In this document: in pieces, positions 16,963 to 58,548 of the stretch | How positions within the stretch are numbered: position 1 is the first letter of the stretch | Layout: each line of letters opens with the position of its first letter | From: Candidatus Aminicenantota bacterium | GTDB taxonomy: Bacteria > Acidobacteriota > Aminicenantia > JAMOAD01 | Assembly: GCA_027061995.1 (NCBI GenBank) | Contig: JAMOUT010000018.1 | Location: forward strand, 1-58,548 | Length of the DNA stretch: 58,548 nt | Direction of reading: 5' to 3' | The notes under the pieces: model-generated | The model's input: only the letters and a program-made list of their open reading frames with translations | What the model was told of the DNA's origin: nothing | Database searches by the model: none | Made by a program: the position numbers and the translations under genes

Positions 16963-18168
16963 TCAACCGATTCTTTTTACTATTTCATTTGCAAATTCAG
17001 AGGTTTTGATGGGGGTAATATTTTCCATCTGTCTTGCCAAATCATAAGTTACTTTTTTATCCTGCACTGTTTTCTCCATAGCTTTAACAATCATATCAGC
17101 CGCTTTGTTCCAGCCGAGATATTCAAGCATCATAACACCGGATAAAATCAATGAGCCCGGATTCACTTTATCAAGCCCTGCATATTTAGGTGCTGTTCCG
17201 TGCGTGGCTTCAAAAAGAGCTACGAAATCTCCTATATTTGCTCCCGGAGCCATTCCGAGACCACCAACCTGAGCTGCACAAGCATCTGATATATAATCAC
17301 CGTTAAGATTAGGTAAAACCAAAACATCATATTCGGAAGAACGGGTTAAAATCTGTTGCAGCATATTATCCGCAATTCTGTCATTTATCAAAAGCTTATC
17401 TTCGGGAATATCCCCTTTAAGCTCTGATTCAATAATAATTTTATCTCCGAATTCTTCTTTTGCCAAATCATAAGCCCATTTTTTAAATGCTCCTTCGGTG
17501 AATTTCATAATATTGCCTTTATGAACAATTGTAACACTTCTTCTATTGTTTTCAAGAGCAAAGTTAATAGCTTTTCTCATCAATCTTTTTGTTGCAAACT
17601 CACTTATTGGTTTAATCCCGATTCCGGAATCCTCTCTTATATTGATTCCAAACTGCTCTTTAAGAAAATCAAGGATTTTCTTAACTTCGTCAGAGCCTCT
17701 TTCCCACTCTATCCCGGCATAAACATCTTCGGTATTCTCCCTGTAAATAACAACATCAAGATTTTCCGGTTTTTTTACGGGAGCGGGGACTCCTTTAATC
17801 CATTTAACAGGTCTAATACATGCATAAAGATCGAGCTTTTTTCTTAAAGCAACATTCAAACTTCTGAATCCGCCGCCTATCGGAGTGGTCAGAGGACCCT
17901 TTATCGCTACAATATGTTCGGTTATCTCGTCAAGAGTTTCCTGCGGAAGATAACCACCTTTTAACTCATTCGCTTTTTCGCCAGCATATATCTCCTTCCA
18001 TACGATTTTTTTGTCTCCTCCGTAAGCTTTTTCAACAGCACCATCAATAACAATTTTCATTGCATTTGTAATATCAGGACCTATTCCGTCCCCCTCTATA
18101 AAAGGGATAACGGGGTTATCGGGAACTACGATTTTTCCATTCTCGATTTTTATTTTTTCTCCGTTCAT
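16963..18168 (-). CDS. icd: NADP-type isocitrate dehydrogenase
   Basis: Oxidative decarboxylation of isocitrate to 2-oxoglutarate. The 401-aa protein has family landmarks [13 protein letters not shown] near the N-terminus, [23 protein letters not shown] (isocitrate-binding Ser/Arg), [28 protein letters not shown] and [27 protein letters not shown]. Length matches E. coli-type Icd. ATG is preceded by AGGAG. It is the fourth gene of an operon in the order citrate synthase, aconitase large, aconitase small, IDH, which follows the reaction order of the pathway. Confidence 0.95.
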
Positions 18169-40876: not shown

Positions 40877-41023
40877 GTTTTCTATATTCGTTGAAAAAAT
40901 ATAATTTTGACAAATATTATAGTTAGATGAGTATTATGCTCCTAAAATCTCGAATAAGAATCTTTAAAACGGTCAACCTATTTTAGGACAAGATAAGTTC
41001 CGGTGCCCCTGAAATAATTATTA

Positions 41024-54733: not shown

Positions 54734-54901
54734 AGAGTTGTGGAATTAGAAGGGTTAATGATTAATTAAAGGATTATTTTCAATAACATCGGAAATATCG
54801 GAAAAAAATATCAAAAAACAGAAAGTCTTAAAAAATAAAATATTTGACAAAAAGGGTGCTATTTTTTATATTAAAATATTATCCGAAAAGGGGAGGAAAA
54901 T
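54734..54901 (+). repeat. Direct repeat copy 1 (~168 bp), upstream of glmS
   Basis: This stretch is almost the same as 58047-58216: by hand alignment about nine mismatches and two single-base gaps. It includes GGGTTAATGATTAATTAAAGG, two ATCGGAA units, a TTGACA/TATATT promoter and GGGGAGG. In this copy the ribosome site is followed by ATATTT rather than ATG, so it no longer begins a reading frame. Confidence 0.9.
54844..54872 (+). promoter_or_regulatory. Promoter in repeat copy 1, ahead of glmS
   Basis: TTGACA (54844-54849) and TATATT (54867-54872), 17-bp spacing. It probably drives glmS and the chitinase gene with a leader of roughly 165 bases. That leader (54880-55043) shows no glmS ribozyme core. 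Confidence 0.6.
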
Positions 54902-55043: not shown

Positions 55044-56846
55044 ATGTGCGGAATATTCGGTATTCAATTTTCGGAAGAAAAAAAAGATTTGGGAAAGATT
55101 CTAAAAAAAGCTGCTGAAAAACTTACATACAGAGGGTATGATTCTGTAGGTTTTGCCACAATAGGCGGGGATAATAAAATCGATCTTAGAAAAGATAAAG
55201 GGAAAATCGACAAAGTTTATACCGAGCTTAAAATGGAAGAGATGAAAGGTTCAAGAGGGATTATTCAGCTCAGATGGGCGACATTCGGTATCCCCTCAAA
55301 AGAGAATGCTCAACCCCATTTGGGATGTAAAGGGAATTTGGTATCAGCTCATAATGGTAATATCGTAAATACAACCGAATTGATAAAAGAACTTACGGAT
55401 AAAGGGCATATTTTTACGGGGGAAAATGATGGTGAGGCTCTCTGTCATCAGGTTGAAGATTGGACTGAAAAAGGGGATACTCTTGAGAAAGCGGTTATTA
55501 AGGCGAATAAAAAAATTGACGGACATTATGCTTGTGTTTGCACTATAAAGGATATCCCTTATATGGTGGCGGTAAAACAGGGGTCCTCACTCTTTCTCGG
55601 AAAAGGGGATGATTTTGTATGCGTATCTTCCGACCTTCCCTCGATTCTCGAATATACAAGGGAATACATCCCTTTGATGGATGGTGAATTTGTTGTTTTT
55701 GATGATAAAAAATATGAGATAAAGGATTTAATGACAGGTGATACAATAGAGAGAGAACCTATTAAATACGATGATGATATACATATAGCTGACAAAGGGG
55801 AGTTTCCCCACTATATGCTCAAAGAGATTTATGAGCAACCCTCCAATATAAAAGAGTTGCTGAATTTTATTCTTAAAAACAGTGAATATCAGGAGAATAT
55901 GAAAAATCTTTTTTCTCATGAAAGGGTGTTTATTGTCGGTGCGGGTTCATCCTATAATGCTTCTGTTACAGGCTCTTTTTATCTGCAAAATCTTATTAAT
56001 AAAACTGTTATTGTATCCAATGCGGGTGAATTTATCCAAAGATGGGGTAAAGTTTTAAACAATGATGATGCTTTTCTCCTTATATCTCAAAGCGGTGAGA
56101 CAAAAGATGTTATGATAGTTCTTGATTTTCTTGAAAATAAAGGATATGAAAATATATTCTCAATGGTAAATGTAACAGGCTCAACCCTTCATATGAGGGT
56201 CCCCGAAAGATTCCCCATACTTTCCAATCTTGAAATAGGTGTGGCTGCAACAAAAACATTTATCAATCAGGTGGTAGCATTTCTAACTATGGCGGCTGTT
56301 TTGGGTAAAAGGGAAGATATATTAAAGGAGTTATCATCACTTTCGGAATATATTGAGGAATTTATAAAAAAATATGATTCGGAGACAAAAACTCTTGCGA
56401 AAAATCTTTTAAATCATTCCGCTTTTTATTTTCTCGGATACGGTATCTCATACGGCGGAGTTATAGAAGGTGCCTTAAAAGTAAAGGAGCTTGCTTATAT
56501 CCCCGGAGAGGGATTTTATTCGTCCGAATTCAAACACGGGCCTCTTGCTCTCATATCCGAAGATCAACCCGTTGTTTTCCTCTCCTCAAACGAGGATTCA
56601 CGAATAACGGTTTCTCATATAAATGAGATTAAAGTCAGAAAGGGAAAGATATATACGATTGCTCCCGAGAATGAAAAACTTAGAAAAGAATCGGATATTT
56701 TTTATCCGTTAAATTCGGATTTCTATTATTTTATCCCTATTTTCGGTGTTATATTTTTCCAACTTCTCGCATATCATATGGGTGTTTTAAAGGGGGAAAA
56801 TCCGGATACTCCGAGAAATTTATCAAAATCCATAACAGTGGACTGA
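55044..56846 (+). CDS. glmS: Glutamine-fructose-6-phosphate aminotransferase
   Basis: Makes glucosamine 6-phosphate from fructose 6-phosphate and glutamine. The 600-aa protein has the N-terminal nucleophile Cys2 (MCGIFGIQ), LRWATFGIP, AHNGNIVN and ENDGEALCH of the glutaminase domain, two SIS domains (GAGSSYNASVTG; ISQSGETKDV), EFKHGPLAL and the C-terminal Lys in NLSKSITVD. The RWAT motif reads QLRWATFG in place of HTRWATHG, a mild divergence. SD AAAAGGAG. Only 2 bases separate it from the chitinase gene, so the pair is an operon. Confidence 0.92.
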   Translation: MCGIFGIQFSEEKKDLGKILKKAAEKLTYRGYDSVGFATIGGDNKIDLRKDKGKIDKVYTELKMEEMKGSRGIIQLRWATFGIPSKENAQPHLGCKGNLVSAHNGNIVNTTELIKELTDKGHIFTGENDGEALCHQVEDWTEKGDTLEKAVIKANKKIDGHYACVCTIKDIPYMVAVKQGSSLFLGKGDDFVCVSSDLPSILEYTREYIPLMDGEFVVFDDKKYEIKDLMTGDTIEREPIKYDDDIHIADKGEFPHYMLKEIYEQPSNIKELLNFILKNSEYQENMKNLFSHERVFIVGAGSSYNASVTGSFYLQNLINKTVIVSNAGEFIQRWGKVLNNDDAFLLISQSGETKDVMIVLDFLENKGYENIFSMVNVTGSTLHMRVPERFPILSNLEIGVAATKTFINQVVAFLTMAAVLGKREDILKELSSLSEYIEEFIKKYDSETKTLAKNLLNHSAFYFLGYGISYGGVIEGALKVKELAYIPGEGFYSSEFKHGPLALISEDQPVVFLSSNEDSRITVSHINEIKVRKGKIYTIAPENEKLRKESDIFYPLNSDFYYFIPIFGVIFFQLLAYHMGVLKGENPDTPRNLSKSITVD

Positions 56847-56848
56847 AT

Positions 56849-58039
56849 ATGCTTAGATATTTTATTATATTAATTGGTTTTTTGATTTTGGGATTCTCAG
56901 GATGCAATAATGAGACTGATTCTTCCGTCTCATCTTATCAAGGCAGAATTATCTCATATATAAGGACATGGGAATTAAGAAAGGATAACGGAAAAAATAT
57001 ATTTTGGACGGCCGAGGATATTGACGGGGAGATGTTAACAGATTTGAATATAGCTTTTGCTATTATAAAAAACGGAGATGATTTGACAATCGAGAGTATG
57101 AATTGGGATGACGGTTTTTTTAATCTTTTTTCCGAGATTCAAAAACTTAAAGAGATATATCCTTTTCTCAGAGTGAATCTGTCGATAGGGGGATGGGGAG
57201 CGGACGGATTTTCCGATATGGCGGCGGATGGAGATCTAAGATCAGGATTTGTTGATAATGTTATGGAATGGGTTAAAAAACACGGATTTGATGGTATAGA
57301 TATAGATTGGGAGTATCCTGTTGACGGAGCGGATGGTATGATTAAATCTCGCCCCGAAGATAAAACCAATTTTACCCTCTTAATGAAAGAGTTGAAAGAG
57401 GCTCTCGATGCTTTATCGAATGAAAACGGAAAAACATACACACTCTCTTTTGCGGCGGCAGCATCTTCAGATTATCTTAATTGGATTGAGCCGAAAAAAC
57501 TATCGGATATTGTTGATTATGTGAATCTCATGACTTATGATTTTTACGGAGAATGGTCGAATACAACCGGGCATCACTCGAATCTGTATAATAGTGATAT
57601 TAAACCGAGTGCTCAGAGCGGGGATAAAGCTGTCAGAGATTTTATCACAGCGGGATTTTCACCGAATCAAATCGTATTGGGCATCCCTTTTTTCGGAAAG
57701 GGTTGGAGGGGAGTTAATAACAAAAATAACGGGTTGTATCAAAGGTTTACGGCTGTATATAATTATAAGGATATGGGGTTTGATGATATTGAAAAACTGA
57801 TTGTTTCCGATAATCTTAAAGAGTATTGGGATGATAGTGCAAAAGCACCATATCTGTATAACGGAGATATCTGGATATCTTATGATAATGAGCAATCGGT
57901 GGAAATTAAAACGGATTATATTAAAAAGAAAAATCTCGGAGGGATAATGATTTGGGAATACTCCCATGATTTTTCCAAAAAACTTTTAACCGTGATTTAT
58001 CAAAATATCAAAAAGAAAACAATCGTAAAAAAGAGATAA
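56849..58039 (+). CDS. Lipoprotein chitinase-like GH18 enzyme
   Basis: A 396-aa GH18 TIM-barrel protein. The active-site motif FDGIDIDWEYP has D148, D151, D153 and the acid E155, all intact; VNLSIGGWG and VNLMTYDFYGEW also match, as does MIWEYSHD at the end. Residues 1-20 form a signal peptide with FSGC as a possible lipobox (Cys20 or so), implying membrane anchoring. It hydrolyses chitin or related GlcNAc polymers. Directly behind glmS, which links amino-sugar supply and chitin use. Confidence 0.9.
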   Translation: MLRYFIILIGFLILGFSGCNNETDSSVSSYQGRIISYIRTWELRKDNGKNIFWTAEDIDGEMLTDLNIAFAIIKNGDDLTIESMNWDDGFFNLFSEIQKLKEIYPFLRVNLSIGGWGADGFSDMAADGDLRSGFVDNVMEWVKKHGFDGIDIDWEYPVDGADGMIKSRPEDKTNFTLLMKELKEALDALSNENGKTYTLSFAAAASSDYLNWIEPKKLSDIVDYVNLMTYDFYGEWSNTTGHHSNLYNSDIKPSAQSGDKAVRDFITAGFSPNQIVLGIPFFGKGWRGVNNKNNGLYQRFTAVYNYKDMGFDDIEKLIVSDNLKEYWDDSAKAPYLYNGDIWISYDNEQSVEIKTDYIKKKNLGGIMIWEYSHDFSKKLLTVIYQNIKKKTIVKKR

Positions 58040-58046
58040 AAGGGGT

Positions 58047-58216
58047 AGAGCTGTAGGATTAGAAGGGTTAATGATTAATTAAAGGATTATTTTAAATAAC
58101 ATCGGAAAATATCGGAAAAAAATATCAAAAAACAGAAAGTCTTAAAAAACAAAATAATTTGACAAAAATGGTGGTATTTTTTATATTAAAATATTGTCCG
58201 AAAAGGGGAGGAAAAT
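58047..58216 (+). repeat. Direct repeat copy 2 (~170 bp), downstream of chitinase gene
   Basis: Second copy of the repeat at 54734-54901, at about 93 percent identity by eye. Here the promoter and GGGGAGG site are followed at once by ATG (58215-58217). Copies 1 and 2 bracket glmS and the GH18 gene in direct orientation. Confidence 0.9.
58159..58187 (+). promoter_or_regulatory. Promoter in repeat copy 2
   Basis: TTGACA (58159-58164) and TATATT (58182-58187), 17-bp spacing, identical in layout to the copy-1 promoter. It would transcribe the hairpin-rich segment that follows. Confidence 0.6.
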
Positions 58217-58346
58217 GAATGCTGAATTATTCAAAGCCTCGAAGCCAAAAGCCAAGAGCATCGAAGCTCTTTCAAAACCGTGCTGTGCAAAGCCCTTCAA
58301 TCCTTTGCTTTTTATAAAGAGCAAAGAGTTGAGGAGCAAGAGCTGA
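58215..58346 (+). CDS. Possible 43-aa peptide ORF
   Basis: ATG at 58215 follows GGGGAGG with 4-base spacing, and the frame runs to TGA at 58344-58346. The peptide is Lys/Ser/Ala-rich with a CC pair (MNAELFKASKPKAKSIEALS then KPCCAKPF). The codons lie in an unusually G+C-rich, inverted-repeat-rich segment, so this may be a chance frame within a structured RNA; a leader peptide is an alternative. Confidence 0.35.
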   Translation: MNAELFKASKPKAKSIEALSKPCCAKPFNPLLFIKSKELRSKS

Positions 58347-58405
58347 GAGCTTTGATAGCTTTATGCCCAAGAAGCTGCCCGAAACGATTTTAGCTTCGAG
58401 GCTTT
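58233..58405 (+). ncRNA. Candidate structured RNA with nested hairpins
   Basis: AAAGCCTCGAAGC (58233-58245) pairs perfectly with GCTTCGAGGCTTT (58393-58405), extended inward by four A-T pairs after one mismatch. Inside are a 6-bp hairpin AAGAGC-ATCGAA-GCTCTT (58254-58271) and a hairpin CTTTGCTTTT with AAAGAGCAAAG (58303-58326). G+C is visibly higher than in neighbours. It follows a promoter. It could be a small RNA, a leader element or the remnant of a mobile element end; no known family is recognised. Confidence 0.4.
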
Positions 58406-58517
58406 ATGCTTTAAGCTTTATAATGAGTTGTCCTAAAAAAGGTTTACAAAAAAATATGCTAAAAGCTAAAGAAAAAATGGTATCATTAAGAGAGAAAAGA
58501 AAAAAGGAGACGCGAGG

Positions 58518-58548
58518 ATGAGTATGAGGAAGAGAATAATAAAAAGAT
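58518..58548 (+). CDS. Start of an unidentified gene (3' truncated by window edge)
   Basis: AAAAAGGAG is followed after eight bases by ATG and the frame MSMRKRIIKR, open to the window end. Too short to identify. It stands about 110 bases after the structured segment. Confidence 0.5.
   Translation, partial: MSMRKRIIKR

Follow-up and report, generated by a model that had tools for sequence, protein, structure and literature searches.

A probable composite of dispersed, modular repeats with an adjoining IS3-family element in a Candidatus Aminicenantota genome

A contig of Candidatus Aminicenantota (JAMOUT010000018.1), analysed over its whole stretch of 58,548 nucleotides (the window), carries near its end a hairpin-rich segment that is probably a composite of a dispersed, modular and mostly intergenic repeat family of BIME/BOX-like type, with an IS3-family element inserted directly to its right. 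Its bricks measure about 20-80 nt and comprise a promoter module, AAGC words, a hairpin (E) and a further brick (F); they occur in variable order and orientation, copied presumably by recombination or by a transposase acting in trans, and the family would have spread recently or been exchanged between genera. The source genome (G000; 2.36 Mb in 104 contigs, 95% complete, low G+C) has these bricks in common with G003 (JAMOVU01), a Candidatus Aminicenantes MAG of the same family and another genus, the latter including G001 and G004 as well.

All parts of the segment are read on the plus strand. A duplicated promoter/ribosome-site module (58047-58216), with the -35 box TTGACA at 58159, the -10 box TATATT ending at 58187 and a GGGGAGG ribosome site, is followed by GAATGCT/GAATTAT heptad words (58216-58232), which by eye border many other copies too. 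Brick B (58233-58267) contains AAGC words and the left arm of a 13-bp inverted repeat, and brick C (58268-58290), a CTTTCAAAACCGTGC linker, recurs together with B and E. Brick E (58291-58337) is a 47-nt hairpin with 8 whole copies in the source genome and 10 in G003. Brick F (58339-58380) includes a 22-nt core (58358-58379) present in 26 copies in the source genome and 20 in G003, and brick B' (58388-58423) possesses reversed AAGC words and the right arm of the inverted repeat. The left end of the IS3-family element (TGAGTTGTCCT..., 58424-58548) closes the window; its orfA start codon is located at 58518, and the contig end cuts the element.

Two features described in the sequence-only reading, an inverted repeat enclosing further hairpins and a G+C shift with recurring AAGC-type words, are confirmed and exceed chance. 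The arms AAAGCCTCGAAGC (58233-58245) and GCTTCGAGGCTTT (58393-58405) are perfectly complementary over 13 bp and extend to 58233-58250/58388-58405 with 94% complementarity over 18 nt. No longer perfect inverted repeat is found in 58200-58430, and a length of at least 13 nt occurs in none of 100 dinucleotide shuffles (mean 8.2, maximum 12); the repeat consists of two AAGC-word bricks placed face to face. Further hairpins are formed by 58292-58314/58315-58337 and by shorter pairs. The RNA fold of 58200-58430 reaches -74 kcal/mol (z -3.6), a value as low in none of 200 shuffles. G+C content is 0.42 in the segment vs 0.33 in the window, and the words AAGC, GCTT, GAGC, GCTC, AGCC and GGCT are nowhere denser in the window than in this segment (13 per 100 nt vs a mean of 1.5). 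The second-densest AAGC/GCTT stretch of the window, at 17149-17252, lies inside a 401-aa open frame and is probably ordinary coding sequence.

The sigma-70-like promoter (TTGACA-17-TATATT, 58159-58187) agrees with the consensus at 11 of 12 positions; promoter-like sites number 2 in 58000-58548, vs 1.4 expected. Its module is 94% identical over 168 nt to 54734-54901, located upstream of glmS (55044-56846), and the duplicated promoter and ribosome site previously proposed ahead of the segment are thereby upheld. On the left side of the module lies the gene of a GH18-family protein (56849-58039). The two module copies diverge after GGGGAGGAAAAT (58216 and 54901, respectively), with ordinary sequence following at glmS and the hairpin-rich mosaic at the other, and because they part at this point the mosaic has a clean left boundary. 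In the loci examined, 58135-58216 is found again at four other places in the source genome and at two in G003, and the promoter modules keep TTGAC(A/G), the 17-nt spacer length and TATATT with a variable spacer sequence.

Copies of the segment are numerous. With a 251-nt query (58190-58440), blastn against the source genome gives 124 matches at E<=10 and 63 at E<=0.001; after merging, the latter leave 40 sites, among them the query and the glmS promoter copy, with a total of 3,832 bases or 0.16% of the genome. On contigs of known length, 17 of 34 sites lie less than 500 bp from a contig end (4.4% expected), the usual picture for repeats at which assemblies break; the actual number of copies is therefore probably larger. 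The matches at different sites correspond to different parts of the query, in variable order and orientation and in bricks of 20-80 nt. Bricks read by eye as recurring across loci are the promoter module, GAATNNT heptads, AAGC words, TTTAAAACCGTGC, hairpin E, brick F and reversed AAGC words. In the examined loci most stretches of AAGC-type words are intergenic, and a few overlap open frames. On G003 contig C40 (L059:326-1066), mosaic bricks encode the N-terminal part of a 246-aa open frame and are read in phase with the gene that follows. The block 58296-58424, from E via brick F into the right arm, is matched in G003 contig C127 with 81% identity (query positions 107-235), and since it recurs there, the brick order of the window is not a misassembly.

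Discrete element ends, target duplications or a mobilising enzyme were not found for the composites, nor was an empty site or a constant outer boundary. Fold z-scores of 16 composites, calculated on the strand taken as sense, range from -5.75 (window copy) to -0.5, and several composites fold barely below their shuffles (e.g. C78, z -1.1; C10, z -0.8; C16, z -0.7; C47, z -0.5); on this range, structure of the whole composite is rejected as a conserved feature. A phage or plasmid origin is likewise rejected, as blastn of 58190-58440 yields no match at E<=1e-5 in either the phage or the plasmid collection.

The distribution of the bricks is patchy. Among 40 genomes, the source genome included, blastn finds 28 matches in G003 and a single weak one in G011; the segment is unmatched in the remaining relatives of this set. 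A search of a genome collection of 84,980 species for the exact hairpin E pattern returns five stretches, all of JAMOVU01 (records of the source genome itself are possibly absent from this collection), and a covariance model of hairpin E matches two of 142 genomes of the class, the source genome and G003. The brick F core is absent from G001, G002 and G004, and a reversed-pattern control for it gives no hit in any of the five genomes G000-G004. The longer brick-bearing stretches are mostly 80-97% identical between the source genome and G003, some falling to 69-78% where gaps or rearrangement intervene, as compared with DNA identities of 73% for glmS and 68% for the GH18 gene. Such high brick identity across genera points to recent exchange or to strong constraint, and the patchy distribution favours exchange. 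Contamination of the bin as the sole source of the G003 copies is rejected, because G003 contig C27 bears bricks 92-97% identical to those of the source genome beside a coding stretch only 70% identical. A stretch of 664 bp with 97% identity, shared by C26 of the source genome (L085:2625-3288) and C127 of G003 (L079:1-664), could be a recent transfer or a case of mis-binning.

At its right edge the composite abuts the IS3-family element, which we take to start at exactly 58424 from the TG...CA rule of IS3 ends. The 125 nt of 58424-58548 recur unchanged at the ends of contigs C69 and C26 (100% vs C69), and the copy on C69 is complete, with an orfA of 129 aa and an orfB of 288 aa. OrfB scores 226.6 bits with the IS3 transposase model NF033516 (cut-off 160); Pfam matches are PF01527 (HTH) in orfA with 36 bits and PF00665 (rve) in orfB with 63 bits. 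The two ends of the element read TTGTCCTAAAAAAGGTTTACA and, reversed, TTGTCCTGAAATAGGTTGACA, and about 2-3 copies are present in the source genome. A solo fragment of its right end, 89% identical over 35 nt, is located at 40962-40996, where the rest of the element is absent. Five junction flanks are available, left ones on C18 (the window) and C26 and right ones on C69, C24 and C72. Mosaic repeats form the flank on C18, C26 and C72, not on C69, and C24 has short AGC-like words only. Three of five is far from random for a mosaic covering 0.16% of the genome; the flanks may have a common ancestry. With regard to a target duplication of the element, the left flank ATAA is unmatched by the candidate right flanks AATG, AAGA and CCTC, which perhaps belong to other copies of the element.

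Whether the bricks are themselves remnants of a family of MITEs or degraded transposon ends, moved by a specific transposase, bears on the same evidence. The inverted-repeat arms, the dispersal, the high identity across genera, the patchy distribution and the adjoining IS3 element would all agree with such an origin, which is nevertheless distinctly unlikely, given that the bricks possess no constant ends, vary in order and orientation and show no target duplication. The ends of the IS3 element (TTGTCCT...), the one insertion sequence compared, are absent from the bricks and brick ends, and the element was not found in brick-bearing G003; lacking there, it is unlikely to have spread the bricks and is rejected in this role. 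The earlier suggestion of a degraded mobile-element end is right in part: the segment is dispersed repeat DNA, and a recognisable IS3-family element follows it directly from about 58424.

Among the bricks, hairpin E looks to be preserved as sense-strand RNA, judging from the base pairing of its copies. The alignment comprises 18 whole copies (8 from the source genome, 10 from G003) with 16 distinct sequences and 21 pairs. On the sense strand, 304 of 304 cells are paired in 19 of the 21 pairs, with changes that preserve G-U pairing; as to the other two, 8 of the 16 distinct sequences have a mismatch at columns 4/45 and 14 at columns 12/37. On the reverse strand 69 of 304 cells of the same 19 pairs are unpaired. 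Three pairs are changed on both sides. By hand count, all eight distinct one-sided changes from a Watson-Crick majority keep the sense pair and each breaks the pair of the reverse strand, a pattern with a chance of 1 in 256 at equal odds. A shuffle control within the alignment gives 24/500 for cells paired and 42/500 for pairs changed on both sides, and is weak because most changes are one-sided and independent events are few. In single folds the sense strand is more stable in all five copies tested. The sense-strand pattern could also be due to a strand bias in C->T and A->G mutation. A lack of other copies and stems not maintained would have refuted the sequence-only reading; the segment has many copies, and one of its stems is maintained.

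An independent small RNA gene at the segment would account for the promoter, the strong fold and the sense-strand pairing of E. At the Rfam gathering thresholds, however, the window contains three tRNAs only, and the region gives no family at E<=1, its two microRNA matches being chance ones (E 4 and 4.7); no terminator-like site was found at the segment, and the other copies have bricks in common, in varying order, rather than one molecule. A small RNA gene is therefore highly improbable, and the undescribed small RNA of the sequence-only reading is rejected as the main reading, even though hairpin E looks preserved as RNA.

For 20 copies of E, two of them partial, the downstream gene is co-directional in all 12 resolvable cases. 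Brick F, used as an internal control, has 13 co-directional and 9 opposite downstream genes (22 with a downstream gene among 30 examined), and the two bricks differ in orientation with a Fisher p of 0.009. By their N-termini the 12 genes downstream of E reduce to about 7 independent groups, and the effect is accordingly suggestive only; co-directional neighbouring genes are common in bacteria. As brick F has no orientation bias, the data do not support a function of the composite as a whole. Several E copies are situated just upstream of a promoter module, after another co-directional gene, which favours an intercistronic or 3'-end hairpin over a place in the promoter's leader. No T-run follows E in the window, and for want of such a terminator E would probably act within mRNA, between genes of the same direction, as a hairpin for stability or processing in the manner of an intercistronic REP.

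The same data bear on a structured 5' leader, in which RNA from the promoter at 58159 would form a long hairpin controlling a gene that was downstream before the insertion of the IS. The promoter and ribosome site, boxes and spacer length kept despite spacer divergence, the strong fold, and promoter and mosaic preceding co-directional genes where resolvable speak for it. Yet the glmS copy of the promoter has no mosaic behind it, hairpin E lies upstream of the promoter in other copies and hence outside its transcript, brick F occurs in either orientation, and no terminator-like site was found; a leader is thus unlikely. The previously proposed leader with an attenuator peptide retains its first part to some degree, in that E lies upstream of co-directional genes, and loses its second. 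The 43-codon frame is present (58215-58346), but its length is no greater than shuffles give (a same-strand open stretch as long or longer in 42% of 1000 dinucleotide shuffles), and the segment is also open for 55 codons in another frame. As the phase of the frame relative to AAAGCC words differs between promoter-module copies, there is no conserved peptide. An attenuator peptide is rejected on its chance length, its phase and the missing terminator-like site.

The composite, as a modular repeat mosaic, invites comparison with known families. REP/BIME, as described in PMC1525189, consist of short, imperfect palindromes that form intergenic mosaics together with other motifs, and are targets of insertion sequences, IS1397 and ISKpn1 of the IS3 family inserting into REPs. 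The present repeats are similar to BIMEs and REP palindromic units of Enterobacteria and Pseudomonas in forming mosaics of palindromes and motifs between genes, and a short palindrome occurs in many, mostly intergenic copies (E, 8 + 10; F core, 26 + 20). They likewise resemble the targets of IS1397, ISKpn1 and ISPsy8 in that an IS3-family element adjoins them at 3 of 5 flanks, its target specificity being putative. A REP palindrome bears a GTAG or CGTC tag, according to PMC3733652; in contrast, neither these tetranucleotides nor their complements occur in any of the 18 copies of E with 6-nt flanks. A RAYT (Y1_Tnp, PF01797) is matched by one protein in G003 and by none in the source genome (95% complete), and a RAYT-driven REP is rejected on the latter result. 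Unlike in REP/BIME, then, no resident RAYT was found in the source genome, and AAGC words and a promoter module belong to the mosaic.

BOX, RUP and SPRITE of Streptococcus pneumoniae, as described in PMC3049150, are modular or small interspersed repeats, highly structured and restricted to close relatives; BOX elements form open frames and are transcribed together with operons, which they extend at the 5' or 3' end. By description, modular structure and restriction to close relatives are similar here, whereas brick order appears far less fixed than the A-B-C of BOX.

Integron attC sites have the core sites GTTRRRY and RYYYAAC; they are found in none of the 18 E copies with 6-nt flanks, and attC is rejected. 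In the literature searched, no paper on intergenic repeats of Aminicenantes was found, and the brick family appears undescribed.

Brick exchange may also reach into gene starts. In the loci examined, ten secreted-protein genes have DNA in common, to a varying degree, from -50 to +130 of the start codon (up to 88% pairwise), while from +150 to +300 identity is near random (baseline about 0.50) in 44 of 45 pairs, the exception being the orthologue pair C64/G003 C127. Their N-termini are signal-peptide-like by eye, several with the palindrome CCCGCAATAGCGGG inside the coding start, and some mature parts are distantly related according to blastp. Shared leader/signal-peptide DNA with unrelated or strongly diverged mature parts is located at L012:1743-2168, L047:1586-2608, L048:2858-3949, L082:2772-3965, L082:4435-5601, L053:1-926 and L025:285-1397. 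Ten proteins scanned with Pfam give, above the curated cut-off, CarboxypepD_reg and SpaA in one, DUF6150 in one and RHS_repeat in one; the latter two belong to genes behind bricks and not to the ten secreted-protein genes. Shared 5' ends with diverged mature parts suggest that bricks are exchanged into gene starts. It is a tentative idea, with a rather low chance of being right, that promoter, ribosome site, hairpin and signal-peptide start would be exchangeable bricks that join onto unrelated secreted proteins, both inside a genus and across genera of this lineage, with the hairpin selected as RNA. Nothing fitting was found in the literature searched on shuffling of leaders or signal peptides.

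Modular intergenic repeats such as REP/BIME and pneumococcal BOX are already known from other bacterial groups. The present family looks undescribed, belongs to an uncultured lineage whose source genome gave no RAYT match, and has an identity across genera far above that of genes; it adds a further case for asking how such mosaics spread. Should promoters and signal-peptide starts be brought to unrelated genes by its bricks, this would be a route to new secreted proteins.
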